Origin: Bdellovibrionales bacterium RIFOXYA1_FULL_36_14
GTDB lineage: Bacteria > Bdellovibrionota > Bacteriovoracia > Bacteriovoracales > Bacteriovoracaceae
DNA: 64,000 nucleotides
Reading direction: 5' to 3'
Assembly: GCA_001769975.1 (NCBI GenBank)
Contig: MEPW01000025.1
Location: 1-64,000, forward strand
Shown here: piece by piece, positions 5,779 to 42,852 of the stretch
Layout: the number at the start of each line of letters is the position of its first letter
Position numbering within the stretch: the first letter of the stretch is position 1
Translations under genes and position numbers: made by a program
The notes under the pieces: model-generated
The model's database searches: none
What the model was told of the DNA's origin: nothing
What the model saw: the letters and a program-made list of their open reading frames with translations, nothing else

Positions 5779-8493
5779 ATGCAGCATCATGAGCATATCC
5801 TTAAGTTAAAAAAGTCCCATACACCATATCATCAATTCACTTTTGATAAAGTCAAACTCCATCGTGGATATTCCAATCGCATTTTACGCATTGATCTTTC
5901 TAAAAAAGAAACCACGATTTTGCCAGTCACTCAAGAGATGAAAGATCTTTTTGTGGGGGGTAAGGGTTTTGATATGTGGCTAACCTTCCAAGAAATTGAT
6001 CAAGACACCAAATGGGACAGCGATAATAATCCAATTTGTTTTTCCGTAGGACCTTTAGGTGGAACTACTTCTTTTCCTGGGGCGGGTAAAACTATCGTGA
6101 CCGCCATCTCGCCGGCCACGGCCTCCATTATGGATTCTAATGTCGGAGGATATTTTGGACCTTATCTGAAATTCGCAGGTTTTGATGCCATGGTAATTGT
6201 GGGTAAGGCCCAAGCGGATTCCATCATCTACATTGATGCTGTCAAGGGCAGTTTATCCATTGAAGCGGCACCACTTGAACAACTAGACTCTCACATCATC
6301 GCCGAAGACCTTACCGATATATACGCTGATGATGATTTAGATAAAAGAAATATCTCGGTCGTATCTGCCGGATCTGCTAGTGAACATTCCAGGATGGGAT
6401 TATTAAACTTTTCTTTTTTTGATTGGAGAAGAAATGTTGCCAGATTTAAACAAGCAGGTCGGGGTGGAATTGGTACAGTTTTTAGAAACAAAAAATTAAA
6501 GGCCATAGTTATTAAAAATAATGGAATAACACCAGCATGGACTGTAGCTGAGAGTAAGGTTGCCAAAAATACTAGGCCTAAAAAGATTATCGAAACCACT
6601 TGTAAAAATGAAATCAGTAAAATTGATGCCGTTATCACCAAATGGAATAGTAATCCTGACTATTTAATTGAAATTATGCATCACCTAATGAGTGAGTTTA
6701 AATATATTTCGAAAACATCCATCGACCGACTTAACTTTCACCTTAAAGTTCCTAAATCCTATATCTATCAAGTTGCGACTTTTTACGATGCTTTCTCCCT
6801 TGAGCCCAAAGGTGAAAAAACCATTCAAGTTTGTATGGGACCTGGATGTCATGCTAAAGGTGCTCAAACCGTACTCGATACCTTCAAAAAAGAACTCGGT
6901 ATTAAAGAAGGAGAAACCACTCCTTGCCAAAAATACACCCTGCTTGCCAGCAACTGTCTGGGGGCCTGCGATAAAGCACCACTAGTTAAAATCAATGACC
7001 AAATATATGGCAAAGTAAATCCTACGGACGTTAAATTGATTTTAAGTGGCGATTTTTCTAACGAATCTGCACTGGAATCCCCTGAGATTATCCAGATGCC
7101 AAACCATACCCCTGTATGCGCCTGTGGCGGAGATAAACATTTTTCAACTTTTAAAAAGCTACTTAAAGAAAATAATGCTCAAAATATTATTGATCTCCTA
7201 ACCGAGTCAAAATTAAAAGGCCGAGGTGGTGCGGGTTTTCTTACGGGTAAAAAGATGCAAACTGTTTTTGATACCCATCTTGAAAAAAAGCTTGATTCAG
7301 TGATTGTGGTTAATAGTGCCATTTTTGAACTAGATCCACTTAACGTAATTGAAGGTATTCTAATCAGTGCACTTGCAGTCAGGGCCAATGTTGGTTTTAT
7401 TTGTTTTAGAAATGAACATTTACCAGCATTACTTAAAATGAACGATGCCATTAAGTGGGCCCAAGCCAAAAATTTTTTAGGAAAAAATATTTTAGGAAGT
7501 CATTTTTCCTTTGATCTCCAAGTGCGCCACGGTGCAGGCAGTTTCGTCAGTGGAGAATCCAGCGCGCTCCTGCAAACCCTGGTTGGAAGAGTTGGTGAAC
7601 CCAAGGCCAAATATATAAAACTTGCCGAAGTTGGTTTCAAAAAAAGACCAACACTCGTTTGCAATATTGAAACTATCGCCAATATCCCTCAGATTATCGA
7701 AAAAGGGGTCAGATGGTTTACCAGTATTGGAAAACACTCCGCCGGAACCAAACTGCTATCAATATCTGGAGATGTTAAAAATCCAAGTTTTGTAGAAGTT
7801 CCTTTTGGTACGACAATCAATGAAGTCATTCAAAACGCCTGTGGTGGTGTCAGTAATCCCAAGAAGCGTAGTCTCAAATTTGTGCAAGTGGGAGGACCAA
7901 CCGGCGGTTATCTTCCAGCCAGTATGCTTGAACAAAAAATCGACTATGATTCCTTAAAAGAAGTTGGGGCAATTATCGGATCAGGACTCATCAGTGTCAA
8001 AAATGATCGAAAATGTTTGATTGATTCCTTACTTTATCAAGTAAATTTTCTTGCCAACGAATCTTGCGGGAAATGTACCCCATGTAGAGAAGGTCTAAAT
8101 AAAGCAAAAGCCATTTTACAAAATATTGCCAAAGGTAAAGGTTCAACAAGCCAGCTTGACCTTTTAGAAGATATCGCCACCACCATGCAAGAAACTTCGC
8201 TTTGTCAGTTTGGCAAAACTGCTAGCAATCCGATCTTATCGGCACTTAGATATTTTAAAGAAGATTTTATCTCTCACTTGGAGCATAAAATCTGTGCATC
8301 TGGAGTTTGCAAGGAGCTTACTAAATTTCATATCAATGATAAATGCACGGGATGTACTTTGTGTGCTAAAGTTTGTCCAACAGGATGTATTGCCTCAAAG
8401 AAAAAGGAACTCCACATAATCGATCAACAAAAATGTATTAAGTGTGGGGCTTGCTTTGATGCTTGTAACTTTAAAAGCGTGGAGGTGAGATAA
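5779..8493 (+). CDS. Hybrid oxidoreductase: AOR N-terminal domain + NuoE + NuoF + 2x[4Fe-4S] ferredoxin
   Basis: The 904-residue protein has four modules. Residues 30-246 are an AFOR_N (pterin-binding) domain: GYSNRILRIDL, VGGKGF, GPLGGTTSFPGAGKT, SNVGGYFGPYLKFAGFDA, AGRGGIGTVFRNKKLKAIVIK. Residues 265-420 are NuoE-like with [2Fe-2S] cysteines C352, C357, C393 and C397. Residues 440-845 are NuoF-like with GRGGAGFLTG (481-490) and the N3-type [4Fe-4S] ligands C763, C766, C769 and C809. Residues 850-904 are a ferredoxin with two CxxCxxCxxxC motifs (856-866 and 886-896). The usual NuoF loop with the DExEPGT flavin/NADH residues is shortened to NSAIFELDP (512-520), and GEETAL is GESSAL. The AOR C-terminal domain is in the next gene, joined by a TAATG overlap with GGAGG before it, so both probably form one soluble complex that passes electrons between a W/Mo-pterin site and a flavin. 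The substrate is unknown. Confidence 0.9.
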   Translation: MQHHEHILKLKKSHTPYHQFTFDKVKLHRGYSNRILRIDLSKKETTILPVTQEMKDLFVGGKGFDMWLTFQEIDQDTKWDSDNNPICFSVGPLGGTTSFPGAGKTIVTAISPATASIMDSNVGGYFGPYLKFAGFDAMVIVGKAQADSIIYIDAVKGSLSIEAAPLEQLDSHIIAEDLTDIYADDDLDKRNISVVSAGSASEHSRMGLLNFSFFDWRRNVARFKQAGRGGIGTVFRNKKLKAIVIKNNGITPAWTVAESKVAKNTRPKKIIETTCKNEISKIDAVITKWNSNPDYLIEIMHHLMSEFKYISKTSIDRLNFHLKVPKSYIYQVATFYDAFSLEPKGEKTIQVCMGPGCHAKGAQTVLDTFKKELGIKEGETTPCQKYTLLASNCLGACDKAPLVKINDQIYGKVNPTDVKLILSGDFSNESALESPEIIQMPNHTPVCACGGDKHFSTFKKLLKENNAQNIIDLLTESKLKGRGGAGFLTGKKMQTVFDTHLEKKLDSVIVVNSAIFELDPLNVIEGILISALAVRANVGFICFRNEHLPALLKMNDAIKWAQAKNFLGKNILGSHFSFDLQVRHGAGSFVSGESSALLQTLVGRVGEPKAKYIKLAEVGFKKRPTLVCNIETIANIPQIIEKGVRWFTSIGKHSAGTKLLSISGDVKNPSFVEVPFGTTINEVIQNACGGVSNPKKRSLKFVQVGGPTGGYLPASMLEQKIDYDSLKEVGAIIGSGLISVKNDRKCLIDSLLYQVNFLANESCGKCTPCREGLNKAKAILQNIAKGKGSTSQLDLLEDIATTMQETSLCQFGKTASNPILSALRYFKEDFISHLEHKICASGVCKELTKFHINDKCTGCTLCAKVCPTGCIASKKKELHIIDQQKCIKCGACFDACNFKSVEVR

Positions 8494-10508
8494 TGGAAAC
8501 TAAAAAAATACCCCTCACCATTAATGGTATCGAAACTACGGTAGTTAAAGGGACCACTCTCCTTAATGCCATTAATAAATTAAATATTGATATCCCGACC
8601 CTGTGCCATCATAAAGATCTCACGCCTAATGGTAGTTGTCGTCTATGTATGTGTGAAATAAGTATGGATGGGAAAAAAGAACTCGTTACCAGCTGTAATT
8701 ATCCCATTACCCATTCCATTACCGTAGAAACCGAAAACGAAAAAGTTAAAAAACATCGTAAGAATTTAAGTCTTATGTATCTTGGTCGCTACCCAAATGT
8801 GCCAGTGATCAAAGATCTTGCCAAAAGATGTGAGGCCTATGATGCTAACCTTTTTAAAAGCGAAATCACGGAAGAATCAACAAACGCATGTATTCTTTGT
8901 GGCAGATGCGTTCGTGCCTGCGAGGAATTTATTCAAGAAAAAATTCTCAGTTTTGCGGGACGTGGAATTAATCGCCACCTGACCATGCCTTTTAATGAAG
9001 TTGATCCCCATTGTGTTGGGTGCACTAGTTGTGCGTATGTGTGTCCCACCGGTGCCATTCAAATTGTTGATCAAATGAATAATCCGGCCAACCCTGAACT
9101 GATTAGAAATCATGGTATGAAAGTCAACGCTGAAATGGCCAACCTTGATCCTTACCAATGTCGTATGCGCGAAGTAGGAACCGCCAATATTGTTGAAGTC
9201 ATGGATAAATACGACCTGCTACCAGTTCATAACTATAAATTCGGACAACACGTTGATACACCTAAAATTGATTCCAAAGTTATGAAAAATCATTATTTCA
9301 CCCAAGGACACCCAGATCAATGCTGGCATGGGTGTTCCATGGCCTGTGCCAAAGCAGTGGATGGATTTAAGCTAAAAACCGGGCCCTACAAAGGCCATAA
9401 AGTTTGCGTAGATGGGCCTGAATATGAAACCGCTGGTGGTTGTAGCAATATGGGTTGCTTTGACATTGATTTTGTCGTTGAATTTAATTTTTATTGCGAT
9501 ACTTACGGAATTGATACTATTTCAATGGGCACTACCATGGCCTTTGTTATGGAAGCCTTTGAGGCCGGAGTCATTACCACCAAAGATACAAACGGCCTCA
9601 AACTCAACTTTGGAGCCTGCAACGAAGTGCTAACATGCCTTCATCAATTGTCACAAGGCGAGGGCTTTGGAGTAGAAGTCGGTCAAGGCGTTAAGTTTCT
9701 CAAAGAAAAGTGGAGCAAACAAAAACCGCAATTTAAAAATTTCCTCTATGATATCGGAATGGAGGCCAAAGGTCTTGAATACTCTGAGTACATGTGTAAA
9801 GAATCACTGGCCCAACAGGCCGGTTATACCCTGGCCCTAAAAGGTCCCCAACACGATGAAGCCTGGCTCATCTTTATGGACATGGTTAATAATCAAATCC
9901 CTTCCTTTGAAGATAAGGCAGAGGCACTTTATTACTTCCCACTTTTTAGAACCTGGTTTGGACTCCAAGGTCTTTGTAAAATTGTTTGGAATGATGTCTC
10001 CCCTGCTGATAACAAAAAACATCCTCCTCAACAAGCGGCTAAAATTCCAGAACACGTGGATAATTACTGGAAATTTTTTGAAGGTATGACTGGTATAAAA
10101 CTTGATGAAGAAAAAATGCTTAATCAATCAGCGCGAGTGCATAATCTTCAAAAAATTATAGGACTTATGCTTGGAAGAAATAAACTTATTGATGATATTC
10201 CTCCCTACCGTGCCGTAGGCCCGGTCACCAAGGAAGAATATACTTCAAGATCAGAGCGCTATGACAAAGAACTAAAAGAAAAAATTGGTATTGATCCAAC
10301 GCCTCTTTCTATCGAAGAAAAAATGCAAAAAATCAGAGAATATCGTATGCATCAATACCACAAGGTAATGCAAGCTGCTTTTAAACGACGAGGCTGGGAT
10401 GAATTTGGTATCCCTAAAATTGAAAGGTTAAAGGAATTGGGAATTGATCGCCCTGAATTTATCCAAATTTTAGAAAAGGCCCGCCAAGAAGCAAGGGAGC
10501 AAAACTAG
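8493..10508 (+). CDS. Hybrid oxidoreductase: NuoG-type Fe-S module + AOR C-terminal catalytic domain
   Basis: Residues 1-80 are a NuoG/HoxU-type [2Fe-2S] domain (C38, C49, C52, C68). Residues 130-187 hold two [4Fe-4S] motifs (C133/136/139/143 and C174/177/180/184). The intervening His/Cys cluster of NuoG (N5) is absent: LGRYPNVPVIKDLAKRC replaces it. Residues 200-665 are AFOR_C: VGTANIVEVMDKYDLLPVHN, then CWHGCSMAC (277-285), GPEYETAGGCSNMG, YGIDTISMGT, KGPQH (H454, equivalent to the catalytic His of AOR) and LQGLC (C495, the fourth cluster ligand). The cluster motif is Cx3Cx3C rather than the usual Cx2Cx3C. Without the N-terminal pterin-binding domain this subunit cannot be a complete AOR, so it should pair with the preceding gene product. 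The next gene starts directly after its stop. Confidence 0.9.
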   Translation: METKKIPLTINGIETTVVKGTTLLNAINKLNIDIPTLCHHKDLTPNGSCRLCMCEISMDGKKELVTSCNYPITHSITVETENEKVKKHRKNLSLMYLGRYPNVPVIKDLAKRCEAYDANLFKSEITEESTNACILCGRCVRACEEFIQEKILSFAGRGINRHLTMPFNEVDPHCVGCTSCAYVCPTGAIQIVDQMNNPANPELIRNHGMKVNAEMANLDPYQCRMREVGTANIVEVMDKYDLLPVHNYKFGQHVDTPKIDSKVMKNHYFTQGHPDQCWHGCSMACAKAVDGFKLKTGPYKGHKVCVDGPEYETAGGCSNMGCFDIDFVVEFNFYCDTYGIDTISMGTTMAFVMEAFEAGVITTKDTNGLKLNFGACNEVLTCLHQLSQGEGFGVEVGQGVKFLKEKWSKQKPQFKNFLYDIGMEAKGLEYSEYMCKESLAQQAGYTLALKGPQHDEAWLIFMDMVNNQIPSFEDKAEALYYFPLFRTWFGLQGLCKIVWNDVSPADNKKHPPQQAAKIPEHVDNYWKFFEGMTGIKLDEEKMLNQSARVHNLQKIIGLMLGRNKLIDDIPPYRAVGPVTKEEYTSRSERYDKELKEKIGIDPTPLSIEEKMQKIREYRMHQYHKVMQAAFKRRGWDEFGIPKIERLKELGIDRPEFIQILEKARQEAREQN

Positions 10509-11111
10509 ATGTCGGAGATGTTTTCACGAAATGTCCCAGATTCTTTTAATATTTTAAAAGAAGTTACCGTCGGCATTGCGGGATGTGGTGGAATTGGCTC
10601 CAATGTAGCGACCAGTTTAACTCGCTCAGGAGTTGGAAGCCTGATTATCGCAGATATGGACCTAGTGGAAATCACCAACCTCAACCGCCAACATTATTTT
10701 CAAGACGATATCGGCAAAACTAAAGTAGATGCTCTCAGTACTCACTTACACAATATTAATCCTGACCTGAAAATTATCACACATTTTGGTAAAGTTACCC
10801 GCCGTAATTATCTTGATCTTTTTAAAAACGTGGATATTTTAATTGAAGCATTCGATTTAGCAGAAGAAAAAAAATGGCTCATTGAAGGTTGGATGAAAAA
10901 TAATCCGACACTACCAATTATTGGAGGCTCAGGTCTTTCTGGTACAGGCAAGACAGAGTTGCTTAAAGTTCAAAGATCCGGCCAACTTACTCTGTGCGGA
11001 GATCAGGAAAGTGATATGAGTGAAGGACTGATCGCACCAAGAGTAATTATGGTTGCCAATATGATGGCCTATGAAACTATCTTTCAAATTTTAAAGGATC
11101 GAAAATCATGA
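10509..11111 (+). CDS. ThiF family-2 E1-like adenylyltransferase for a sulfur carrier
   Basis: The 200-residue protein shows the E1 nucleotide-binding motif GIAGCGGIGSNVA, the conserved acidic IIADMDLVE, and NLNRQHYFQDDIGKTKVDAL (ATP-contacting Arg and Lys). It ends with LCGDQESDMSEGLIAPRV, typical of the short ThiF family 2. The Zn-binding CxxC pairs and catalytic-cysteine region of MoeB/long ThiF are not present. It would adenylate the C-terminal glycine of a ThiS/MoaD-like protein, and such a gene follows with an ATGA overlap. Similar E1/MoaD pairs accompany tungsten AOR genes and are thought to serve pterin-dithiolene synthesis, so a cofactor role for the hybrid AOR is the best inference. 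A thiamine role is the alternative. Confidence 0.88.
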   Translation: MSEMFSRNVPDSFNILKEVTVGIAGCGGIGSNVATSLTRSGVGSLIIADMDLVEITNLNRQHYFQDDIGKTKVDALSTHLHNINPDLKIITHFGKVTRRNYLDLFKNVDILIEAFDLAEEKKWLIEGWMKNNPTLPIIGGSGLSGTGKTELLKVQRSGQLTLCGDQESDMSEGLIAPRVIMVANMMAYETIFQILKDRKS

Positions 11112-11308
11112 TTACAGTTAATAATCGAGATCAACTGGAATGGTCCCCCAATATGACAGTGCAAGATGTTTTAAATCACATGGGACACACTTATTCTCTC
11201 ATCACTGTTACCGTTAATGATAAGTTAGTAGAAGATGAAGATTATGATAGCTTTGTAGTTCCTGATCATGCGTTTGTCAGTGTCTTTCACTTGGCACATG
11301 GTGGATAA
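11108..11308 (+). CDS. MoaD/ThiS-like sulfur carrier protein
   Basis: This 66-residue ubiquitin-fold protein has MITVNNRDQLEW, MTVQDVLNHMGH, ITVTVNDKLVEDEDYDSF and VPDHAFVSVFHLAHGG. The C-terminal Gly-Gly is the site that an E1-like enzyme adenylates and that then carries a thiocarboxylate. Its start overlaps the ThiF-like gene (ATGA), and its GGT GGA TAA end overlaps the start of the flavoprotein gene. The context argues for sulfur transfer to the molybdo- or tungstopterin of the hybrid AOR rather than to thiamine, but sequence alone cannot separate MoaD from ThiS. Confidence 0.85.
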   Translation: MITVNNRDQLEWSPNMTVQDVLNHMGHTYSLITVTVNDKLVEDEDYDSFVVPDHAFVSVFHLAHGG

Positions 11309-12494
11309 TATAATTTTCACACCATTTAAAATCCATAACCTTACCATTAACAATCGCATGGTACGTGCTGCTACCTATGAAGGTCATGCTGATTTTAACC
11401 AAACGCCACTTCCCTCTATGATTGGACTTTACGAAGAACTCGCAAAAAATGAGGTCGGCTTGATTATAACTGGTGGTAATGCCACCTCTCAATCTGGACG
11501 GACGATCCGGCCAAGACAGGCTTCCATCCAAACGACTGAACAAGTAAAAAGGTGGAAAAAAGTGACTGACCGGGTACACCTCTATGAATCAAAAATTTTT
11601 ATGCAAATATCCCATGCTGGCAGACAAACTTTAAAAAAAGTCACTAAGCAAAGAGTTCTTGCTCCCTCTAAAATCAAAAGCCCTCTATTTAAACAAACGC
11701 CCACAGTCCTTAATAAAGCTGAAATCAAAAATATTGTTTTAGAATATGCTAATGCTGCGTTTAACGCTAAAGCAGCTGGGTTTGATGGTGTGCAAATCCA
11801 TGCCGGCCATGGTTATTTAGTTCATCAATTTCTTTCTCCCCATATAAATAAAAGAACTGATCAGTACGGCGGAAGCGATGTCAATCGGTTTAGATTTTTA
11901 AAAGAAATTTTAAGCGAAGTAAAAAATAGTTGCGGCACTTCTTATCCGGTTATTATCAAACTTAATCTAGGCGATGATTTAGGTTTTTCTTTGGCAGACG
12001 CTAAAGAGTATATAAAATTATTAAATGACTGTAACACGGTTGATGCCATTGAACTGTCATATGGGACTATGGATCAACCATTCAATATTATCAGGGGTAA
12101 AACCCCCTGGGATTTTGGTTTTACTTTTTCACCCTTTTTCTCGTCTTACCCACCTATATTGAAAAATATTGTTTTCCATTTGATGAAAAATAAAATCAAA
12201 AAAAGCACACTCCCGTTTTGCTTTAACTACAACTTAAAAAGTGCCCAAGAGATCTTAAATCTTTCAAGTAAACCCATGCTTCTAACCGGGGGAATTCGAA
12301 AAGTCAGAGATATTGAATCAATATTAGAGCAAGGATTTACTGCGGTTACTCTAAGCAGACCTTTTATTAGAGAACCGGATTTAGTAAAAAAAATACGTTA
12401 CAAATTAACCGATGCATCCAAGTGTATAAATTGTAATTTATGTACCATTCACTGTGACTCTCCCAAGCAGACCCACTGTTATTTAATATCTTAA
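11298..12494 (+). CDS. Old Yellow Enzyme-family NADH:flavin oxidoreductase with Cys-rich C-terminus
   Basis: The protein (about 398 residues from ATG 11298) is an FMN TIM barrel. Visible motifs are FTPFKIHNLTINNRMVRAAT, FMQISHAGRQT, AGFDGVQIHAGHGYLVHQFLSP (conserved HxxH active-site pair), KRTDQYGGSDVNRFRF and PMLLTGGIRK followed by TAVTLSRPFIREPDL. It ends CINCNLCTIHCDSPKQTHC, which recalls the cluster-binding tail of 2,4-dienoyl-CoA reductase-type members but with different spacing; a [4Fe-4S] cluster is possible. OYE enzymes reduce activated C=C bonds. The ATG lies inside the sulfur-carrier gene, so it is translated as the fifth member of the AOR operon. A longer in-frame start at 11268 is unlikely. 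The physiological substrate is unknown. Confidence 0.88.
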   Translation: MVDNIIFTPFKIHNLTINNRMVRAATYEGHADFNQTPLPSMIGLYEELAKNEVGLIITGGNATSQSGRTIRPRQASIQTTEQVKRWKKVTDRVHLYESKIFMQISHAGRQTLKKVTKQRVLAPSKIKSPLFKQTPTVLNKAEIKNIVLEYANAAFNAKAAGFDGVQIHAGHGYLVHQFLSPHINKRTDQYGGSDVNRFRFLKEILSEVKNSCGTSYPVIIKLNLGDDLGFSLADAKEYIKLLNDCNTVDAIELSYGTMDQPFNIIRGKTPWDFGFTFSPFFSSYPPILKNIVFHLMKNKIKKSTLPFCFNYNLKSAQEILNLSSKPMLLTGGIRKVRDIESILEQGFTAVTLSRPFIREPDLVKKIRYKLTDASKCINCNLCTIHCDSPKQTHCYLIS

Positions 12495-25297: not shown

Positions 25298-25912
25298 GTG
25301 AGTCAATATTTTTACAATACCCTAATCATATTATCGCTGGCACTCTGGTGCCTGGGTTTTAGTTACGTACCCGAAAAAATATCACTCCATGAACGAAAAC
25401 AACTTACTTTTAGTTATGGCGTATTTCAACCTGGAAATAACTGGGCAACCTCTTCCCATGAGGTAAATCGAGAACTCCCCTCCACGGTTTATGGAACTCA
25501 AATCAAAGTTCGATACGAAAGTTATGACTTAGATTTTATTGATTATCGCATTGGCGTGGATATTCAAGGGATAGCAGATAAGGATCTCCTGTTTTCCGCG
25601 GTCTCACTGGCCTTTGACTTAACCAATGATCTCTATAACAAAAAAAAACATCGTATCATCAGTGTAGGCACATTCGCTTACTCACCAAGAACCGTCATCA
25701 TCGCTGATGATGAGCAATTGGAAGGGATCTCCTATAAGTATGGCCTTTCCTTTGAATGGGTGTATGCCATCTTTAAAACCTGGTCAATGAAAACCATGAT
25801 TGGTTACAACTACCAAAAGCTGGGAGAATATGACTCTACTTATTTTTTTGACCCCAGCTACATGACTATCAGAGGCATCGAAGCTGGGGTTGGATTAAAC
25901 TATGTTTTTTAA
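25298..25912 (+). CDS. Secreted or membrane-anchored beta-barrel-like protein, unknown function
   Basis: This 204-residue protein starts at GTG and begins with a hydrophobic signal segment (FYNTLIILSLALWCLGFSYV). The rest shows amphipathic strands with many aromatics (LTFSYGVF, IKVRYESYDLDFIDYRIGVDI, SFEWVYAIFKTWSMKTMIGYNYQ) and ends YVF, like an outer-membrane barrel. There is no Shine-Dalgarno sequence, and a promoter abuts the start, indicating a leaderless mRNA. It overlaps the convergent giant lipoprotein gene by 4 bases. Confidence 0.65.
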   Translation: MSQYFYNTLIILSLALWCLGFSYVPEKISLHERKQLTFSYGVFQPGNNWATSSHEVNRELPSTVYGTQIKVRYESYDLDFIDYRIGVDIQGIADKDLLFSAVSLAFDLTNDLYNKKKHRIISVGTFAYSPRTVIIADDEQLEGISYKYGLSFEWVYAIFKTWSMKTMIGYNYQKLGEYDSTYFFDPSYMTIRGIEAGVGLNYVF

Positions 25913-28900
25913 TAAGAGATAGAATTTACACTAACAGGCACGCTGCTGTGTAAATCAGGAGCAGTGCTCGTTCCTAGTTGTCCGTAATCATTATTACCCC
26001 AGCATTTCGCACCATTTTTAAAGAGAGCGCAAGTGTGATTACTTCCGGCAGTCAAAAGTATAACTTCCGATCCAGCGGTTAAACCACTTACGTCTTGAGC
26101 ATATGGCGAGCTTATGGTATTGCTTGTACCCAGTTGTCCATAATCATTATTACCCCAGCATTTTACCGCTCCACTTATTTGTAAGGCACAACTATGTCTT
26201 AGACCAGATACCACCTGTACTACCTGAGTAAGCGCGGTATCACTAGCGTCGACATCCACTATCACAGGGATGGTACTATTCCCTACGGCATTATTGTTAC
26301 CAAGCTGTCCATCGGAATCACTACCCCAACATCTCACTCCTTCATTCACGACAATGCATGCATGATTTCCCCCTACACTAATCATATCGGCATTGTTGCC
26401 ACCGGCGATCGGTACAGCGTAGAGAGCTTCGATATTAACAGTATTATTACCCCAACAATAAACTTGTTTGGTATTACCAATAATGGCACAACTGTAATTT
26501 CCGCCCGCTGCCAACTTATGAATAGTACCAACCGTGCTTAAATTGGCGGCGCCTCGTAAAACAATTTTGGGAACATAAGACGCAGAATCCAGATTATCTC
26601 CCAGTTGCCCGTCGACACCTTGTCCCCAACACATAATCTCACCACCCACTTTAGCACAGGTATGTTCTCTACCACTGGATATATCGGTAACGCGCGCTAG
26701 ATTGGCGGTCGTTTCATCCTTGACCGCCACGGGAGTTGAACTGGCACTAAGTACCGTGGAGACTCCTAACTTACCAAGCGAATTATTACCCCAACAACGG
26801 GCCTCACTATTAAAAGCGGCACAAGAAAAATCCATTCCGGTAGAAAGTCCTTTGATAATACCGTCCGTTGCTAACAATACTTGCGCGGGATTGGTGCTAT
26901 TTGAGGCACTTCCATATCCCAGTCGACCTGAACCACCATTTCCGAAGCAATAGGTACCGCTGTTTAAATAGACACAAGAATGTTCCTCTCCGGCCGAGAT
27001 ACTGATACCACTCATGGTATAGACATAATCAGGCGAAGTTTTATTCGTATTGGTTCCGTTACCAAGCTGATAGGTATTATTTTTTCCAAAACACCTCGCT
27101 CCGCCACTGGTAATTATACAAGTATGACTTCCGCCGGCAAATACTCCCTGAGCTTTAGTATTGGCAGTAAAGCCGGTAACGTCAGTTGGAACATTTTTAT
27201 AGACGTTGGTGGAATCGCCAAGTTGTCCTTCGACATTTCGTCCCCAACATTTCACCCCAGCACTAAGCAGCGCACAGGTATGATCATCACCGGCAGTAAT
27301 CTGCACCACTCCAGTATTGGCCCCCAATTCATTCACAAAATCACCAACTACTGGAATGGTTTTCATGCTTACCGCATCTGAACCGTTTCCTAGTTGTCCA
27401 TACACATTCGATCCAAAACACTGGACTCCACCGTCATAAAGTGCACAAGTATGAGATCGCCCGAGCGCCATTATAAAATCTTTTTTAGTAGCAGATAATC
27501 CAGTGATCAACCTTGGGGCAATTTGATAATTTCCGCTGCTTCCAATTCCCAGCTGGCCTTGATTATTTCGTCCCCAACAATAGAGATCGCCTCCTTGGAC
27601 CGCACAAGCGTGTTCAGCACCTGCATATATTGCATCTACATCACTTAAAATAGCTGGATCAAGTAATGAAGCATATAAGCGATACGTGTTGCTTGAGTTA
27701 ATCCCCAGTTGTCCGTAGACATTATCACCCCAACAGTAAATATTACCTGATGTGTTGAGGGCACAACTAAAATATTTACCAACGGCAATTTGCTTGATGT
27801 TGTTGATAGCATTACCAGAAACATCCACCACCGCCGTCGATAATGCTGTTCTAAATGGCTCGTTAGTATTCACACCTAGTTGTCCAGTGGTGCTGGCTAA
27901 TTTTTGATTGCTACCAAAACAATACACTAAACCAGAAATCAGTGAACATGTATGATCGGCCCCGGAAGCCACTTGAATAGCATTGGCCAAACTTAAAATA
28001 TGTTTCGGATAACTTCTAAGGGTATTCGTTCCGTCTCCTAACTGATAGAGGGCATTGTCTCCCCATCCACTAACCCGATCTTTAAAGATTGTAAAATTAT
28101 GATCTTCTCCAGGATAGAGGGCCAGGGCTTTTTGATAGTATTTAGTAACTAAAGTAGATTGATTATTGGCACTATCGCTTTGGGTCGCGGTTATGACCAC
28201 CAGCCCATCTGGATAATCACCTAAAGTAGCCACATCATAACTCCATACACTACCCACACAATTAGCACTTAATGCTTGAGTATGACTTCCACCGTCTGAA
28301 ATACTAATCGTCACTTCAGTTGATCCAGCTGGTGGATTGGTGCAAGTTCCTGAGATGCTAAATGGCTCTATGATATTGGTTCCCTGCGTGGCCTTAATAT
28401 ATGTACCCATCCCTGGAGTATCTATTGTGACAACAGGTGCAATGGTATCAATTATTATATTTCTACTGGCCAAGGTGGTGGGCATGACAATCGCAAAATT
28501 GGTCATAATATTACCACCAATATCAACCATCGTTGCACCATTCATATGGAACATGGATGATGCTACTCCAAAGACTTCCAAAGGATTGGCCCAGTCACCT
28601 TGAGTTACCGTATAATTACAGGTCATTTGGGTAAGGATCGTCGAACTTAGGGTGCACATTATTTCTCTTTCCAAACCACCAATATTAAGGCCCAAGGTGG
28701 GACTGCCACCCACTGGAGCTTGCATGCTGGCAGAAAAAGTTACTTCTATAGGAATAATTTCACCGACGGTGTAATATCCTCCTGCTTGATGAGTAGGTCC
28801 TGCATCGACATCTACAATAGTTGGAGGAATCGTGCTGACGTATAAATCCTTATTACCAGCTAATGACGTTGGTAATAAGACGTCAGGAAGAATTAAACTA

Positions 28901-31900
28901 GCTGTAAAAATCTGGGCATCATAAATAGTGGTGATTGTACCACTACTTAGTACTAAGGAGCCTGTGGCCTCATAATTTAAATCAGCATTAAAATCTCCTG
29001 CCTGTACCGTGTAATTACATAACAAAATGGAAGTATCACTTATATCTGGAATGCAATCAATAAGTCTCGTGGTATCAGGACTTGCCACGGTATTAATCAC
29101 TAAGTTGAGGGCAACCGAAGCATTACTTGATAAAATTATATCATGAGAAAAATCTATTTTAATTTCTATCACGTCATTTAAAATGTAGATGCCATTTACA
29201 TTATCAGAAGTAACGACGTTAACTGCAGCAGTAGTTCCATCTACAATCATGGTATTGGGCATAAACGGAGTGGTTAAAGTTAAATTGGCCTGATTCCCGT
29301 TTCTATCTCTGATATCACCAACCAGGGCATTCACATTTGCATAACTCAGATATCCAGCAATGGTTATATCATTAGCACCAACCGTATAACTACAAACGAT
29401 AGCTTTATTATCAGTTGGGTGGCTGATGCAATTAATGGTTTTGCCAAGGGCCCCAATATTTAAATCCAACGTCACCGCACTCATTAAAGCTATAGCCTCA
29501 TGAAATGAAATAGTGATTTCTAAAGTCTGTCCCAAATACATTTTATCCGGGGCAATTAACGACGGTGAAGCTACTATACTGGTTACATAAGGTCTAGTGC
29601 CATCTATAAGCGTGGAAATTGCCAAGCTCGGAATATGCAAATCAGCATAATTGATTCCATTAACATCTCGAATTGTCCCATTTACCCCATTATTAGACAC
29701 CAAAGAGGTACTGCTAGATATGGAAATATTTTGTCCAATACTTCCCGCACCTTCACCATCTCCATTTTTCACTTGATAAGAAAATCTGGCAGTATCACCA
29801 ACGGCCTGAACAAATTGGGCAACACCAGTGGAGTTTACACCTCCCACGTTTAAATACAATAAAGGATTACCGGTGACCGAGATATTTTGATCAAAGGTAA
29901 AGTCCAGTAATAAATTATAACCATCATCTATACTAATGAGTGCCGGAGTTGACGCCACGGTTACGCTGGTAATGTGAGGAACCAACCCATTGATTACGAT
30001 GGGATCGTTAACGATTGTTCCAGCAGGATCAAACGTCGTGTAATCTAAAAAGTTTCCGGCAGTATCAAAAATAGCATGTGTCCCCGAGATAGTTAGCGGA
30101 TTAGTGGCGGAAAAAGATAACGGATTGGCCAAATCATTAGATAACACCGTATAGGAAAAGGTCAAAATGTTGGTATTGGATCCGCTGGTATAAGTGGCCA
30201 CTCTTCCATTACTTAAATTGATTCCCAAAGCTCCGCTACTAATATTCACGACTTCGTTTAATTCCATTTCTAAGCGCACAATCTGTCCAACCGTATATGA
30301 CAAAGTAGTACCAGTCGTTGCTCCTTGAGGTCTAATCTCCACTACTTCTGGTGAAAAAGAATCAATTTTAATATCTTTTAAAACTTTAAGCGAAAAGCCA
30401 GTCTCTGGGTCTGGTAGGTATCCCGCGACTGGGGCAGGAATACTAAAGAGTGAATTTCCTCTGGCATCCCTGATATCTCCCCCACTTGAATCAAGTGAAG
30501 TTATACTTAGATAGTTTAAATCACAATTAGGATCGCTAAATTCAGTTACACATATAATAGGATCTATGCCAATCCGGTCACCACTCATGATTTGATAATG
30601 AAAAATCAAAGTTGTGGGATTTTCCACATGATCAAATGTGGCCCGACGAGTAACCCCACTGGTATTTAATAAAAGGGCCGGCGTTCCAATTACTGTAATT
30701 TCTTCTGAAAAAACTAATGTGAGAGGAAGTATCCCCGCACCTAGTCCTAAATTGGAATTAGGGCCGTATTTGGCATTTGCAATCAACGAAGTAACTTGAG
30801 ATACGGTAGGTCTTAAGGCATCGATAGTCATATTTTTATTAACTGATAGTGATCCAGCACCAATACTCCCTGTTCCCGGAGTGTATAGTCGCAAATCAAC
30901 GACATCCATTTGATTGCCATTTATGTCTCTCATCGCCGATCCGTTAAAGACTAGTGCTTGGGTATTTAAATAATCCAGTCTGCCATCAATTCTATGTTGT
31001 GTGGAATCCCCAGCTTTGACCCGATATTCAAATTCAAGCATTGAAGTTCCCGAACCTCCAATATAAGAAGCCGTTCCACATAAGGTGATATCAGGGTTGG
31101 TATCTAGAGTTAAATAAGGAGTTCCAGACACTGTATTAACAATGACCACATCATCAAATATAATTCGAATAGTAAAAAGATCATCTTGAAGATAATTTCC
31201 ATTAATGTTGGGAGAGGTAATATTCGTAACTACAGGAACTTTTCCATCTACGGTAACTGGCATTTGCAGGGAAACTGGATTACTCAAAGATCCCAAATCA
31301 CCGGAATTGGGAAAATTTCCCAACAAGTTACCATACAAATCCCCCACATTAATAAGTGGATTGGCACCAACATAATCCAAATGCTCAATCCCATTATTGT
31401 AATCACCTTTTAAAACAGTATAAGGACAAGTAAAGGTAGTTAACGGATTTACATGAACATAGGTACAATCCACATATTGGGAAGTTAAAAGGTTATTATA
31501 AATGTTAAGTAACAAACGAGGAGTACCCGTTACATAAAGAGGGGTAGCTGTCGTAGTTATCTTAATAGTTACCAAATCACCCATTATTTTGGTTCCCACA
31601 TCCACCGTAGTGATTGCATCAATGGGAGGTCGGTTAGTACCAAGCGTGATTAATTTATTTCGAATTTCGGAAGGAATTACGCCCTCGTAAATATTACTTG
31701 CGGCATTACCTACTTCATCTTCTAGAGTGGCCCCCACCAAACTGAATATGCTGGCACTGGCAGTGTCTATATCTAAATACGGTGCCTGAGGTCCCGTCAC
31801 TATATCTCCATCGTTGGCAATATAGCTGAAAATAATTTGGTTACTTCCACTACCACTTACATAAGTGGCAGTCCGAGTAGGTGTCACGTTGATAAACATT

Positions 31901-33615
31901 GCCAACGCCCCCGTCACCACCACATCTTGATCAAACTCGACAATAAATTCCACCAAATCACCAATTCCTACCAAGGCACTGGTGGCGGTGTTTGTATAGG
32001 CCCTGATCATATGTGGTCGATCACCGTCAATATCAACGTTTCGTAAAAAATCAATTGCGGTGGAAGAAGTCGGTGGAGGCAAAAGTTGACTGAGACTTTC
32101 ACCATTATCAGTTATCATGGAACCACCATTAAATTTTAGTGGCCCGTTACTAGGCGTAAACATATCATTCGCGATATAGGCAAGTGAAGGTCCAGTGGAG
32201 AAATCATTTTCCTCCACGGTATAGCGAAACTGCAGTACACTCGTTCCACTGCCCCCCACATAAGAAGCTCTCGCGGTAAGATTTATACCATCGATTATTT
32301 GCAGTTCAAGATAAGGAGTTCCCGTAACCACGATATCTCTACTCGTTTCTAGAAAAATGTTAATGGTCTGACCTAATATATAAGTGCCATCTGGTTCATT
32401 TATATACCCCCTTACAACTCGGGCCACTCGAGCATTCACAGGGATATTGGCAGCATACAGGCCATTGCTGGTAGGTGCAGGGAGAGGTAACAATAAATTA
32501 TTATTTCCCACATCCGTCAAAACGCCTCCATTTAAAACTAAGGCATCTACCGTCAAGTACTGAAGCCTGGTTGCATAATCTTCCACCTGTACGGTATAAA
32601 TGAAATTCAAACTTGTAGAAGTACTGGTAGTAGGATCAAATACGGCGTATCGATAATTAGGAGTAAGATTGAGTTCAATTCTAGGATACCCCTGGCTCAC
32701 GTTCCAAGAAATAGGTTCAGAAGTATTCACTTGAATATGAATTTGGTCACCTTGATTTCTCATTTCGCCCGCTGTCGCGGTAGTGGTAACGGATAAAATG
32801 CTAGGTGCACCAGTATCAATGATTATATTTTGATTATCGGATAGGGAATTACCTCCACCAATTACTGGTAATGCAGCAACTGTTGAAAACGCATTCCCGG
32901 CCACATCCCTAATTAATCCACCCAAAGCACTGGTAGATGAATATTCTAAATCTGAAGTGTTGTCTAAAAAATTAACAACATATTTAAAAACTAATATTGA
33001 AGTTCCACTCCCTGAAACGTACAAACCTTTCGCTCCAGCTGAAGCATTTAGGAGTAACATTACACTTCCAGAGAGATACACAGGCTCATTAAATTCAATC
33101 TCAATATTTATTATATCTGCCAACCCATAGGTACCATCCCCGGTGGATGAACTTACATTTAAAATAAGTGGAGACAATGTATCTTTCCTGGTACTGAGAG
33201 TAACCGTTCTGGCCTGTCCTAAGAAATCTGAGTGATTGGCGACAATGGTCACAGTTCCTTGAGCAAGAGTGGTTAGATCAAGTTCCCGTCCAATTCCAGT
33301 TGACCATACATTACCGTTACAAACAATATTTCCATTGGGAGCGCGTACAGTACCGTTCACATCAATGGCCTGCACGACTACGTACGCTCCATTTTCCGAA
33401 CACACCCCCGATAACGGAAAGTTAGTATAATTTGAAGAATTGATAAAAGTAGCAGAACTTTGAATCGACAACGTCGTGTTATCTTCCGATCCTGGAACTC
33501 GAGCATTAAACGGTTTATTAGGCAGACAAGAAACAAGTAACACCTGACTGATGATCATCAACCATATAAGTTTCCTTAAGGGCGTATAACCTACGAGATA
33601 GCCGTAATTAACCAA
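25909..33615 (-). CDS. Giant lipoprotein with Ig-like repeats and 14 RCC1 repeats
   Basis: A 2568-residue surface protein. It begins with a lipoprotein signal (LRKLIWLMIISQVLLVSC, lipobox LVSC). The TTG start at 33615 is preceded by AGGAGTGTATA and is therefore accepted. After a short Ig-like unit come about 12 repeats of roughly 120-140 residues, each with the pattern YxxGDxIxIxIxFxExVxVxGxPxLxLN, then YVSGSGTSxLxFxYxVxxGD, then DxxGN; these resemble calcium- or adhesin-type Ig repeats. The last ~750 residues hold 14 RCC1 units (HTCAL...CWGxNxxGQLG), enough for two seven-bladed propellers, and most blades have a Cys pair. It is probably anchored on the cell surface and used for binding or adhesion, which is inference. 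Antisense ORFs are by-products. Confidence 0.9.
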   Translation of the reverse strand: MVNYGYLVGYTPLRKLIWLMIISQVLLVSCLPNKPFNARVPGSEDNTTLSIQSSATFINSSNYTNFPLSGVCSENGAYVVVQAIDVNGTVRAPNGNIVCNGNVWSTGIGRELDLTTLAQGTVTIVANHSDFLGQARTVTLSTRKDTLSPLILNVSSSTGDGTYGLADIINIEIEFNEPVYLSGSVMLLLNASAGAKGLYVSGSGTSILVFKYVVNFLDNTSDLEYSSTSALGGLIRDVAGNAFSTVAALPVIGGGNSLSDNQNIIIDTGAPSILSVTTTATAGEMRNQGDQIHIQVNTSEPISWNVSQGYPRIELNLTPNYRYAVFDPTTSTSTSLNFIYTVQVEDYATRLQYLTVDALVLNGGVLTDVGNNNLLLPLPAPTSNGLYAANIPVNARVARVVRGYINEPDGTYILGQTINIFLETSRDIVVTGTPYLELQIIDGINLTARASYVGGSGTSVLQFRYTVEENDFSTGPSLAYIANDMFTPSNGPLKFNGGSMITDNGESLSQLLPPPTSSTAIDFLRNVDIDGDRPHMIRAYTNTATSALVGIGDLVEFIVEFDQDVVVTGALAMFINVTPTRTATYVSGSGSNQIIFSYIANDGDIVTGPQAPYLDIDTASASIFSLVGATLEDEVGNAASNIYEGVIPSEIRNKLITLGTNRPPIDAITTVDVGTKIMGDLVTIKITTTATPLYVTGTPRLLLNIYNNLLTSQYVDCTYVHVNPLTTFTCPYTVLKGDYNNGIEHLDYVGANPLINVGDLYGNLLGNFPNSGDLGSLSNPVSLQMPVTVDGKVPVVTNITSPNINGNYLQDDLFTIRIIFDDVVIVNTVSGTPYLTLDTNPDITLCGTASYIGGSGTSMLEFEYRVKAGDSTQHRIDGRLDYLNTQALVFNGSAMRDINGNQMDVVDLRLYTPGTGSIGAGSLSVNKNMTIDALRPTVSQVTSLIANAKYGPNSNLGLGAGILPLTLVFSEEITVIGTPALLLNTSGVTRRATFDHVENPTTLIFHYQIMSGDRIGIDPIICVTEFSDPNCDLNYLSITSLDSSGGDIRDARGNSLFSIPAPVAGYLPDPETGFSLKVLKDIKIDSFSPEVVEIRPQGATTGTTLSYTVGQIVRLEMELNEVVNISSGALGINLSNGRVATYTSGSNTNILTFSYTVLSNDLANPLSFSATNPLTISGTHAIFDTAGNFLDYTTFDPAGTIVNDPIVINGLVPHITSVTVASTPALISIDDGYNLLLDFTFDQNISVTGNPLLYLNVGGVNSTGVAQFVQAVGDTARFSYQVKNGDGEGAGSIGQNISISSSTSLVSNNGVNGTIRDVNGINYADLHIPSLAISTLIDGTRPYVTSIVASPSLIAPDKMYLGQTLEITISFHEAIALMSAVTLDLNIGALGKTINCISHPTDNKAIVCSYTVGANDITIAGYLSYANVNALVGDIRDRNGNQANLTLTTPFMPNTMIVDGTTAAVNVVTSDNVNGIYILNDVIEIKIDFSHDIILSSNASVALNLVINTVASPDTTRLIDCIPDISDTSILLCNYTVQAGDFNADLNYEATGSLVLSSGTITTIYDAQIFTASLILPDVLLPTSLAGNKDLYVSTIPPTIVDVDAGPTHQAGGYYTVGEIIPIEVTFSASMQAPVGGSPTLGLNIGGLEREIMCTLSSTILTQMTCNYTVTQGDWANPLEVFGVASSMFHMNGATMVDIGGNIMTNFAIVMPTTLASRNIIIDTIAPVVTIDTPGMGTYIKATQGTNIIEPFSISGTCTNPPAGSTEVTISISDGGSHTQALSANCVGSVWSYDVATLGDYPDGLVVITATQSDSANNQSTLVTKYYQKALALYPGEDHNFTIFKDRVSGWGDNALYQLGDGTNTLRSYPKHILSLANAIQVASGADHTCSLISGLVYCFGSNQKLASTTGQLGVNTNEPFRTALSTAVVDVSGNAINNIKQIAVGKYFSCALNTSGNIYCWGDNVYGQLGINSSNTYRLYASLLDPAILSDVDAIYAGAEHACAVQGGDLYCWGRNNQGQLGIGSSGNYQIAPRLITGLSATKKDFIMALGRSHTCALYDGGVQCFGSNVYGQLGNGSDAVSMKTIPVVGDFVNELGANTGVVQITAGDDHTCALLSAGVKCWGRNVEGQLGDSTNVYKNVPTDVTGFTANTKAQGVFAGGSHTCIITSGGARCFGKNNTYQLGNGTNTNKTSPDYVYTMSGISISAGEEHSCVYLNSGTYCFGNGGSGRLGYGSASNSTNPAQVLLATDGIIKGLSTGMDFSCAAFNSEARCWGNNSLGKLGVSTVLSASSTPVAVKDETTANLARVTDISSGREHTCAKVGGEIMCWGQGVDGQLGDNLDSASYVPKIVLRGAANLSTVGTIHKLAAGGNYSCAIIGNTKQVYCWGNNTVNIEALYAVPIAGGNNADMISVGGNHACIVVNEGVRCWGSDSDGQLGNNNAVGNSTIPVIVDVDASDTALTQVVQVVSGLRHSCALQISGAVKCWGNNDYGQLGTSNTISSPYAQDVSGLTAGSEVILLTAGSNHTCALFKNGAKCWGNNDYGQLGTSTAPDLHSSVPVSVNSISY

Positions 33616-33843: not shown

Positions 33844-34284
33844 TTACTTATCGTCAATAACCAACTTTTCTTGGCAAACGACCTGGTGTTTATCTTTTCT
33901 TCCCAGATATGACTTTCTTACTTTTAAGGTAATGGCATCGATTGGGCAGACATCTTCGCAGACAAAACAGCTAAGACACCGACTATAGTCAATATTCATT
34001 TTCACTTCATGGTGCTGGAGTAGCTTGACTTCAATACAGGCACTGGGACAGGCCCGCTCACAAATTTTACAGCCATTACAAATGATTTTATTTTTTTGAT
34101 TTACTACCAGAGTTGGAAAACCTAAAGCTCTGTCTGACTTTCGCAGATTTGTAGATGATTTCATTTTTAAGGCAGAATAAGATTTTAGTGAAGTGCTCAT
34201 CATTTTCAGCGCTTTTAATACTGCACGCCCGAAACTATTTTTTTTAAAGTCATCAATATGGGGAATCATGTTTTTCTCACTCAA
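33844..34284 (-). CDS. NuoI/EchF-like 2x[4Fe-4S] ferredoxin subunit
   Basis: The 146-residue protein has two clusters: CNGCKICERACPSACIEV and CLSCFVCEDVCPIDAI. The arrangement is like NuoI, HycF or EchF, which carry electrons to the N2 cluster of complex I-like enzymes. It overlaps the preceding NuoCD-like gene by 4 bases (ATGA), the third member of a nuoB-CD-I-like set. No membrane subunit follows. A 60-residue N-terminal extension without recognised domains precedes the clusters. Confidence 0.88.
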   Translation of the reverse strand: MSEKNMIPHIDDFKKNSFGRAVLKALKMMSTSLKSYSALKMKSSTNLRKSDRALGFPTLVVNQKNKIICNGCKICERACPSACIEVKLLQHHEVKMNIDYSRCLSCFVCEDVCPIDAITLKVRKSYLGRKDKHQVVCQEKLVIDDK

Positions 34285-35963
34285 CGATCCACTTCATGAA
34301 TATTAATATCCAAGGATCGTACAAGTAACGGTAGCCGTTTTATATTTTCATTTCTAATAATTTCTGGAATAGCACTCAATAATTTATAGCTTGGTCCAAT
34401 TATTTTAAACCGATAAGGTAAATAATCTCCGACTGATTTGATAAAAATTCCAGCACAACCTCGAGCATTTTCAATTCTTGAAAAATGTTCTTTAGATGAA
34501 AGTAGTGGACCATGACTATAGTACTCGTCATAATTTTTTAAATTTAACTCAGAGTCATTTAATTTATCTTTTTCAACTAGTTCACACTTTTCAATTGGAA
34601 CATAATATTTGCCACTGGGAACATTATCTAAGATTTGAGAAATAATCTTAACCGACTCATAAATTTCTTTCATCCTTACGTAATATCGATCATACGAATT
34701 TCCATATGCCCCAAGTGGTATATCGAATTCTACTTCGTCATACAAATAGTACGGGTCATTTTTTCTTAGGTCAAATTTAACTCCACACGCCCTTAAATTT
34801 GGCCCTTCTAATCCCAATTTCATAGCATCTTTAGCCGTGATCGCATTGGTACTAAGTTGATCAATCCATTGGATAGATTTAGTTAATTGTTTCTCTAATT
34901 GCCTTACCAATCTTTCAAATTTGCCAATTGATTGCAAAATAAAAACCACCGTTTCTCTTTTTATATCTTGATTAAAACCACCAAAACGATGGGGATTTCT
35001 CCCATCATATGACAGTCCTAGTTGAGACATATACTCACCAAACATGTGCATAATCTCTTTAATTAATGCAAAAGCTACATCGTTTACGGCCAACTCCAAC
35101 ATGCGTTGAATAGTCTGCAAATGATCAAAAATACGGTCCATTTCAAGATATAGCATTCTGATCGCGGCGATACGATCGGAGACAGGGATTTGAAGAATTT
35201 CTTCCACAGTTTTGCACCAAAGAATAGGTAATGAATTTCCCGATAAGCATTTGTATCTGTGCAGTAACTGCAAAATATTTAAACTATTGGTTGCTTCAAA
35301 CTTTTTCTCAAGGCCTATATGATGATATCCGATTTCAATTTCCGAGGCACCAATGCAATCTTCTTTTAGCTCCATTAAAATACGAAATTGATTATTCGTT
35401 GACGGGTGGAACGGACCAAAACTAAACCATTGTTTAGAAGAATTTACTGTGGGAACTAAAACGCTCGAAATCTTAAAGAAGCTTCTATAAGTGGGTTCTT
35501 TTACCACTTCGCTTGCATCATCTTTTCTCAGTAAAAAACTCTTGATATGGTCGTGGGTAAATAATTGTTTATTTCGACCACTAGTATTGGAAATACCAAA
35601 AAATTCAAAAATCTCTCTTAAATACCAGTCGCCTACTTGCCATAAGTTTGAAAAATCAGCGATCTGCTCTCTATTTTCAATTATTGTTTGAAGAAAAATT
35701 ATTTGGGAGTCCACTGGTCTCTCTAGGATAAAGACCAGTACGAAATCACTATCGGGTAACTTAACCGTGGATGAATAAACAATCACATCCACTAGTTTCA
35801 AAAACTGATATTGTTCTTTTAAAATTTGCAAACTTTTATGCAAATTTTTATTTTTAATACTAAAAGTGCAATAACCTTCATTATCAGCGGACACCTCACA
35901 TTCGATTAAAAGCTTAAATTCTTTAACAAGTATTTCTTTTGAATATTCAAAGGTCCAATTCAT
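34281..35963 (-). CDS. NuoC-NuoD fusion / hydrogenase-large-subunit-like protein without Ni ligands
   Basis: The 560-residue protein joins a NuoC-like N-terminus (GDWYLREIFEFFGISNTSGRN, then LLRKDD) to a NuoD-like C-terminus (FSFGPFHPSTNNQFRI, HHIGLEKKFEA, DRIAAIRMLYLEMDRIFDHL, GLEGPNLRACGVKFDLRKNDPYY, then SLDINIHEVDR). In [NiFe] hydrogenases the two metal CxxC motifs lie near RxCGxC and DPCxxC. Here the first region reads RYKCLSGNSL, with no CxxC, and the C-terminal motif is DINIHEVDR, as in complex I. It is therefore a quinone-site-like or Ehr-type subunit, not a hydrogenase. No proton-pumping subunits are encoded nearby. Confidence 0.85.
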   Translation of the reverse strand: MNWTFEYSKEILVKEFKLLIECEVSADNEGYCTFSIKNKNLHKSLQILKEQYQFLKLVDVIVYSSTVKLPDSDFVLVFILERPVDSQIIFLQTIIENREQIADFSNLWQVGDWYLREIFEFFGISNTSGRNKQLFTHDHIKSFLLRKDDASEVVKEPTYRSFFKISSVLVPTVNSSKQWFSFGPFHPSTNNQFRILMELKEDCIGASEIEIGYHHIGLEKKFEATNSLNILQLLHRYKCLSGNSLPILWCKTVEEILQIPVSDRIAAIRMLYLEMDRIFDHLQTIQRMLELAVNDVAFALIKEIMHMFGEYMSQLGLSYDGRNPHRFGGFNQDIKRETVVFILQSIGKFERLVRQLEKQLTKSIQWIDQLSTNAITAKDAMKLGLEGPNLRACGVKFDLRKNDPYYLYDEVEFDIPLGAYGNSYDRYYVRMKEIYESVKIISQILDNVPSGKYYVPIEKCELVEKDKLNDSELNLKNYDEYYSHGPLLSSKEHFSRIENARGCAGIFIKSVGDYLPYRFKIIGPSYKLLSAIPEIIRNENIKRLPLLVRSLDINIHEVDR

Positions 35964-39634: not shown

Positions 39635-39651
39635 CTGATCTACCCCTTCGC

Positions 39652-40263: not shown

Positions 40264-40265
40264 AG

Positions 40266-42849: not shown

Positions 42850-42852
42850 AAA

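Follow-up and report, generated by a model that had tools for sequence, protein, structure and literature searches.

Every part of the enzyme considered here has been described separately, in the WOR classes I-V (PMC13328260) or in the Bfu family (PMC9304861), and class IV combines these parts as separate subunits. Class IV includes AmWOR1, the electron-bifurcating tungsten AOR of Acetomicrobium mobile (WorABCSL, Wor-Bfu, PDB 9mqx), in which an intact L subunit is accompanied by an S subunit with four [4Fe-4S] clusters. A different arrangement was found in the window, a stretch of 64,000 nucleotides from Bdellovibrionales bacterium RIFOXYA1_FULL_36_14 (contig MEPW01000025.1, positions 1 to 64,000), where an aldehyde oxidoreductase (AOR) is divided between two overlapping genes, P1 and P2, with NuoE, NuoF, ferredoxin and NuoG modules between its halves. 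The A, B, C and L parts and the C-B-A order are common to both systems, but in the split locus the L subunit is cut, the C and A subunits are attached to the cut ends and there is no S subunit. The form in the window also differs from AmWOR in having neither the B5 domain nor the NADH loop, while the WorB-like part is complete in loci of a related three-gene form. The NuoG part of P2 was closest to 9mqx_A, the NuoF part of P1 to 9mqx_B, and the AOR_N and NuoE parts to 9mqx_D and 9mqx_C, respectively.

Two other described groups resemble the split enzyme. Intact AORs of about 720 aa, similar to class I and class II WORs, are 47-58% identical to its N half and 54-60% identical to its C half over the whole length, and both have a CX3CX3C motif and ThiF/ThiS neighbours. 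Unlike the split enzyme, these intact AORs are single polypeptides, encoded alone or with a ferredoxin-like WorS of about 130 aa, and have no Bfu module. The class II benzoyl-CoA reductase BamBC-DEFGHI also unites an AOR-like subunit with NuoE/F/G-like subunits (BamG/H/I), but its BamB is intact, it includes HdrA-like subunits, and the AOR second-shell residues are missing (PMC12096430). No described Bfu enzyme (PMC9304861) is known to have the enzyme for its third substrate divided between the two ends of the module. A cut AOR is not mentioned in the portions consulted of PMC13328260 or PMC9304861, and no description of a split AOR, of an AOR-NuoE fusion or of an AOR in Bdellovibrio was found in the open-licence literature. 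As far as could be found, the locus therefore represents known chemistry and known modules in a new, conserved and undescribed arrangement of chains.

P1 (positions 5779..8493, 904 aa; all genes of the operon are on the plus strand) begins with AOR domain 1, the metallopterin-binding half (AFOR_N, PF02730; 5878..6519, residues 34-247; E 1e-48, profile positions 2-198 of 199). This is followed by a NuoE/BfuC-like, thioredoxin-like [2Fe-2S] domain (6622..7047, residues 282-423, full profile; ligands C352, C357, C393 and C397), a NuoF/BfuB-like domain (Complex1_51K, SLBB and NADH_4Fe-4S; 7201..8277, residues 475-833) and a C-terminal double [4Fe-4S] ferredoxin (B3/B4; 8332..8475, residues 852-899). 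P2 (8493..10508, 671 aa) consists of a NuoG/BfuA-like module with Fer2 and two [4Fe-4S] clusters (8502..9062, residues 4-190; best PDB match 9mqx_A) and of AOR domains 2 and 3 (AFOR_C, PF01314; 9120..10445, residues 210-651; E 2.5e-84, profile positions 5-385 of 385). The AFOR_N profile was thus matched end to end on P1 and the AFOR_C profile on P2, with one AOR domain per polypeptide. The first-pass annotation, made by a model from the letters of the window, had given this composition for both genes, and it was borne out by the full-length profile matches for P1 and by the profile matches and aligned cluster ligands (C277, C281, C285 and C495) for P2. The same annotation had taken the TAATG overlap of the P1 stop with the P2 start (8491-8495) for a reading frame broken within the inserted block. 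The overlap is present, but the frame is not broken: this is the ordinary gene boundary between a NuoF-ferredoxin end and a NuoG start, seen in every related locus, and P2 is preceded by a strong Shine-Dalgarno sequence of its own, GGAGGTGA (8481..8488). A check for a sequencing frameshift found none, with the gene boundary conserved in all related loci.

In alignments with the intact relatives, the N half runs up to residue 246 of the intact protein and the C half takes over after residue 250, so that the two lie 4 residues apart at the boundary between AOR domains 1 and 2. The reading of the two genes as a single AOR interrupted between its domains by a NuoE-F-Fd-G block could be upheld, because a cut at this position loses no AOR sequence, and P1 and P2 would then form an obligate hetero-oligomer. 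The second-shell residues of PfAOR are Thr243, Glu313, Tyr427 and His448 (PMC12096430), and in the alignment to 1aor the first three of them correspond to T230, E312 and Y433 of P2. H454 of P2 aligns with H437 of FOR and lies 21 residues past Y433, a spacing identical to that between Tyr427 and His448 in PfAOR. We take FOR H437 to be the equivalent of AOR H448. The cluster ligands C277, C281 and C285 align with C288, C291 and C295 of PfAOR, in a motif that is CX3CX3C and not CX2CX3C, and the counterpart of C495 is the final cluster cysteine of the Aromatoleum AOR. In P1, domain 1 retains its pterin-binding motifs, N-GG and AGRGG-G. In an AlphaFold2 model of P1 residues 1-434 (pLDDT 70), Foldseek matched AOR domain 1 of 9mqx_D, 4z3w_A, 1b25 and 1aor, and also the NuoE-like 9mqx_C.

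The ratio of nonsynonymous to synonymous substitution (dN/dS) was computed between the window and the corresponding locus (L033) of another genome of the same genus. It was 0.032 for AFOR_N and 0.042 for AFOR_C, with 0.046 for a complete AOR of the same genomes. The other values were 0.026 for the C-terminal ferredoxin, 0.068 for NuoG, 0.069 for NuoF, 0.104 for NuoE and 0.119 for a downstream flavoenzyme of the old yellow enzyme (OYE) family. Both AOR halves are thus under strong purifying selection and are clearly functional sequences. The complete AOR (575 aa) is encoded on contig C50 of the window genome (L001 1489-3216) and at L036 8511-10238, and is distant from the split AOR. It was considered as a possible partner that might pair with the split halves in a different way, but was rejected as such in view of its low identity to them (23-28%) and its separate gene context.

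Related loci were sought by a pattern-seeded scan of 84,980 species genomes and by targeted genome searches, and the distribution figures given here derive from sampled genomes. Seven distinct split loci were found, in Bdellovibrionota, in Bacteroidales and on one contig of ambiguous host. The scan gives a lower bound, as one of the loci (L104) was missed by it and recovered by genome search, and most of the hosts are metagenome-assembled genomes (MAGs). No relative of P2 was found in viral contigs scanned with the P2 alignment. The two-gene layout was found in the window, in L033 and in L034. The L033/L039 genome, Bdellovibrionales RIFOXYC1_FULL_37_79, is the other genome of the genus (P1 83% and P2 91% identical, with the same flanking genes), and L034/L040 belongs to a different genus of the same family (P1 62% and P2 75% identical to the window). 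The three-gene layout was found in L104, from a second family of Bdellovibrionota, in two MAGs of Bacteroidales (L042 and, as far as visible, L041, whose first gene is truncated at the end of the contig) and in L043. The last is identical to L044, the same contig from one spring having been binned both as a 'Clostridia' and as a 'Candidatus Dojkabacteria' MAG, so that at least one of the two is a mis-binning; they were counted as one locus and their host was treated as ambiguous. Chance can be excluded as the origin of the arrangement, because both AOR halves were matched at full length and are conserved over the seven loci.

The three-gene form consists of gene A (AOR_N-NuoE, 432-437 aa), gene B (a HydB-like NuoF that stands alone and carries a [2Fe-2S] domain of its own, 626-628 aa) and gene C (NuoG-AOR_C, 667-671 aa). 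The sequences indicate that the two-gene form is a fusion of genes A and B, and that three genes are the ancestral layout. All ligands of B1-B5 are present in the three-gene NuoF, together with BfuC and BfuA (A1, A2 and A4), as in the Bfu (HydABC) family (PMC9304861). The NADH/FMN region of this NuoF in L042, L043 and L104 is of the bifurcating type, with the Ala232, Met234 and Phe367 signature defined in PMC7311640. By the criteria of PMC9304861, the three-gene loci qualify as bona fide Bfu cores. No gene for a WorS with four [4Fe-4S] clusters was found beside any split locus, and the NuoG clusters fused to AOR_C may stand in for it.

The closest relatives of both halves were the intact single-chain AORs of about 720 aa from Bacteroidales and Clostridia. 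These were present in 136 of 393 Bacteroidales genomes and in 17 of 341 Clostridia genomes; a search of 340 Bdellovibrionota genomes found no intact member at the threshold applied. The split sequences formed one clade (SH-aLRT 100) nested within the intact family, both in the joint tree and in the trees of the separate N and C halves. As the two half trees agree in this, the halves have a common history. A single origin of the split is most likely, with a probable lateral acquisition of the split AOR by Bdellovibrionota. In a small NuoF tree with few references, the split NuoF sequences again formed one clade (100/95), which grouped with a Bacteroidales Bfu and 9mqx_B (95/95) and stood apart from the hydrogenase and Nfn examples. 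In Clostridia, the intact AOR gene is frequently preceded by a small gene for a WorS-like ferredoxin and followed by ThiS. At six Clostridia loci (L108, L109, L110, L111, L113 and L114) the intact AOR and WorS adjoin three small genes which, by eye, resemble HcnA/B/C-type subunits of a dehydrogenase of the D-hydroxyproline or sarcosine type, and this points to a substrate derived from the degradation of amino acids. At L111 (7131-11892; G674), the intact relative is followed by ThiS and by stand-alone NuoE and NuoF with the non-bifurcating Thr/Lys signature, and this locus is possibly an NAD-linked variant.

The electron module of the two-gene form has diverged from that of its three-gene relatives. 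The NuoG part in the window carries one [2Fe-2S] cluster (C38, C49, C52 and C68) and two [4Fe-4S] clusters (C133-C143 and C174-C184) without a His-Cys3 site, which is the type 2 BfuA set of Wor/Bam-type Bfu enzymes. In the NuoF part of all three two-gene forms (window, L033 and L034), an 11-residue NADH/FMN loop is deleted. The alignment places the deletion in the window at N512-S513 (7312..7317), and the VCN-ADEGDPGAFMD-type stretch reads VVNS/VCNS-AIFE in the two-gene NuoF, while the loop is present in all other NuoF/BfuB sequences compared. In complex I this loop bears the Glu95-Ser96-Glu97 triad, a nicotinamide contact (PMC11677225, PMC6560083). The B5 [2Fe-2S] domain is also gone from P1 of the window, in which the sole thioredoxin-like [2Fe-2S] domain is that of NuoE/BfuC (44% identity to the NuoE of gene A and 28% to the B5 domain). 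Fusion of the C and B parts does not in itself require the loss of B5, since another split-AOR host (G144; L089 3873-10177) encodes NuoE-B5-NuoF-Fd in one protein of 798 aa, beside a 1290-aa protein headed by NuoG. Of the five B2 ligands (C438, C476/T, H525, C531 and C536 in NiFe-Bfu numbering), four are kept in the window as C746, H833, C839 and C844; the remaining position is A784, and a serine in L033 and L034. One or more of the two-gene forms carry a change or a deletion at 43 of 124 otherwise invariant NuoF positions, and the two-gene NuoF branch has 1.07 changes per site, compared with 0.19 for the AOR halves of the same genomes.

The reading that we favour, with a probability of roughly 0.62, is that the two chains form one AOR/WorL active site, and that in the window the bifurcation scaffold has been retired and the output is most likely ferredoxin. 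Comparison with the intact and three-gene relatives shows that an intact AOR gene of about 720 aa was opened in frame at the boundary of domains 1 and 2, and a Bfu-type C-B-A module (NuoE-NuoF-NuoG) inserted, so that the N half was fused to the C subunit and the A subunit to the C half. With the electron module holding them together, the AOR halves would have to reassemble about the bis-metallopterin, and electrons from the aldehyde would leave the AOR [4Fe-4S] cluster directly for the NuoG-type clusters, which would replace the WorS wire. In the three-gene form these electrons would pass to a complete FMN/B2/B5 core, to be divided between NAD+ and ferredoxin. In the lineage of the window, genes 1 and 2 were fused, B5 was lost and the 11-residue loop was deleted. 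The simplest reading of these losses is that reactivity with NAD(H), and bifurcation with it, was lost in the two-gene lineage; given the missing loop and B5, ferredoxin is most likely the sole output there, reached through the double cluster at the C-terminus, which is conserved. A ferredoxin-coupled AOR is thus more likely in the window than an NADH-coupled or bifurcating one.

Some observations weigh against this proposal. The GRGGAGF and GESSAL motifs of the FMN pocket are intact in the window NuoF, so FMN may still be bound. The AlphaFold model of P2 was unusable (pLDDT 51, with 7 sequences in the alignment). In addition, searches for moaA (PF06463), moaC (PF01967) and moeA (PF03453), which are required for the pterin cofactor, detected none of them in the window genome (86% complete) or in its sister genome (95% complete). 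The same profile searches did detect moeA and moaC in the genomes of L034, of L104 and of a Bacteroidales host, with moaA matches there that were at least weak. The sole MoCF_biosynth match in each of the two genomes was a protein of about 407 aa without a MoeA_N match, which is probably CinA. The same gene cluster may be missing from both draft assemblies; otherwise the genus would have to draw its cofactor from another source. Each of these genomes encodes two AOR-family enzymes and ThiF/MoaD-like genes, and the strong conservation of the two AORs in both genomes argues that the cofactor is available to them.

The first-pass annotation had proposed coupling to NADH, ferredoxin or both, perhaps by bifurcation. 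The signatures for this were found in the three-gene relatives only. For the window, where NuoF has no 11-residue loop and B5 is gone, coupling to NADH or bifurcation is unlikely on sequence grounds. If the shortened loop were compensated and B5 dispensable, the window enzyme could still be NAD(H)-coupled or bifurcating, and the conservation of B1, B3, B4, C1, four of the five B2 ligands and both FMN motifs, along with the purifying selection on NuoF (dN/dS 0.069), speaks for this. This reading is nevertheless considered unlikely: the deleted loop is the one that carries the nicotinamide-contacting triad of complex I (PMC11677225), B5 is missing, the fifth B2 position is Ala784, and 43 of the 124 otherwise invariant NuoF positions have changed or been deleted in one or more of the two-gene forms. 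Moreover, non-bifurcating homologues lack clusters B2-B5 according to PMC9304861. As a member of the bifurcating Bfu family, the window enzyme was rejected on the joint absence of B5 and the NADH/FMN loop.

It is also rather improbable that the enzyme does not act on aldehydes at all and catalyses another low-potential reaction, as BamB or YdhV do. The Pfam family AFOR_C takes in the benzoyl-CoA reductase BamB, and BamB-BamGHI likewise unites AOR-like and NuoEFG-like subunits (PMC13328260), but the BCR and YdhV clades are without the second-shell residues (PMC12096430), and all four of these are present in P2.

Downstream of P2 lie genes for a ThiF-like adenylyltransferase (10509..11111), a ThiS/MoaD-like sulfur carrier of 66 aa with a C-terminal GG (11108..11308) and an OYE-family flavoenzyme with a cysteine cluster at its C-terminus (11298..12494). 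They abut or overlap without gaps, as had been noted from the sequence, and the coordinates and domain matches agree. A ThiF-like gene also adjoins most split loci and many intact AORs, and its product is probably an accessory for sulfur transfer to the pterin. The OYE-family gene stands beside the split AOR only in the two genomes of the window's genus, and for this reason was regarded as an accessory and not as part of the core. The overlap of this gene with the operon and its C-terminal cysteine cluster would be in keeping with electrons going to the OYE-family enzyme for ene-reduction, or with the enzyme running in reverse as a ferredoxin-driven acid reductase. This is improbable, as the OYE gene is not found beside any split locus of another genus, including L034 of the same family, and evolves faster (dN/dS 0.119).

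The presence of a complete AOR in the same genome and the failure to find pterin synthesis genes might suggest that the halves are relics or moonlighting proteins which form no AOR site, the 575-aa AOR of contig C50 doing the work. This is highly improbable, since among the large parts of the operon the AOR halves show the strongest constraint, level with the complete AOR (0.046), and their pairing is kept at seven loci over at least two phyla. An artefact (assembly chimera, frameshift or mis-binning), for which it could be said that most sources are MAGs and that L043/L044 is one contig in two phyla, is refuted for practical purposes by the same architecture and flanking genes in the window and L033, by its recurrence in L034 (a different genus), L104 (a different family) and two Bacteroidales MAGs, and by genes that each have their own start and are conserved at 62-91% identity.

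Elsewhere in the window, a NuoC-NuoD-like fusion (Complex1_30kDa + 49kDa, 560 aa; 34281-35963) lies near a Na+-NQR operon (38417-44202), and an open reading frame of 2568 aa is present on the minus strand (25909-33615).

The 2026 classification, which covered 4,064 WORs, admitted only proteins with both AOR domains on a single chain, so that split enzymes fall outside it and the current scheme has a blind spot for them (PMC13328260). The intact, split/bifurcating and split/ferredoxin-only relatives constitute a ready set for stepwise testing. A wider scenario, in which a two-polypeptide site with an inserted bifurcation module arose once and spread between phyla, and in which the enzyme in the genus of the window is ferredoxin-only and depends on other cells, possibly prey or partners, for a pterin cofactor that its own cell cannot make, is put forward as doubtful. 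For the family, the favoured reading would mean that the boundary between AOR domains 1 and 2 is a natural in-frame insertion point for a bifurcation module, without a WorS wire, and that the bis-metallopterin active site can tolerate assembly from two chains.

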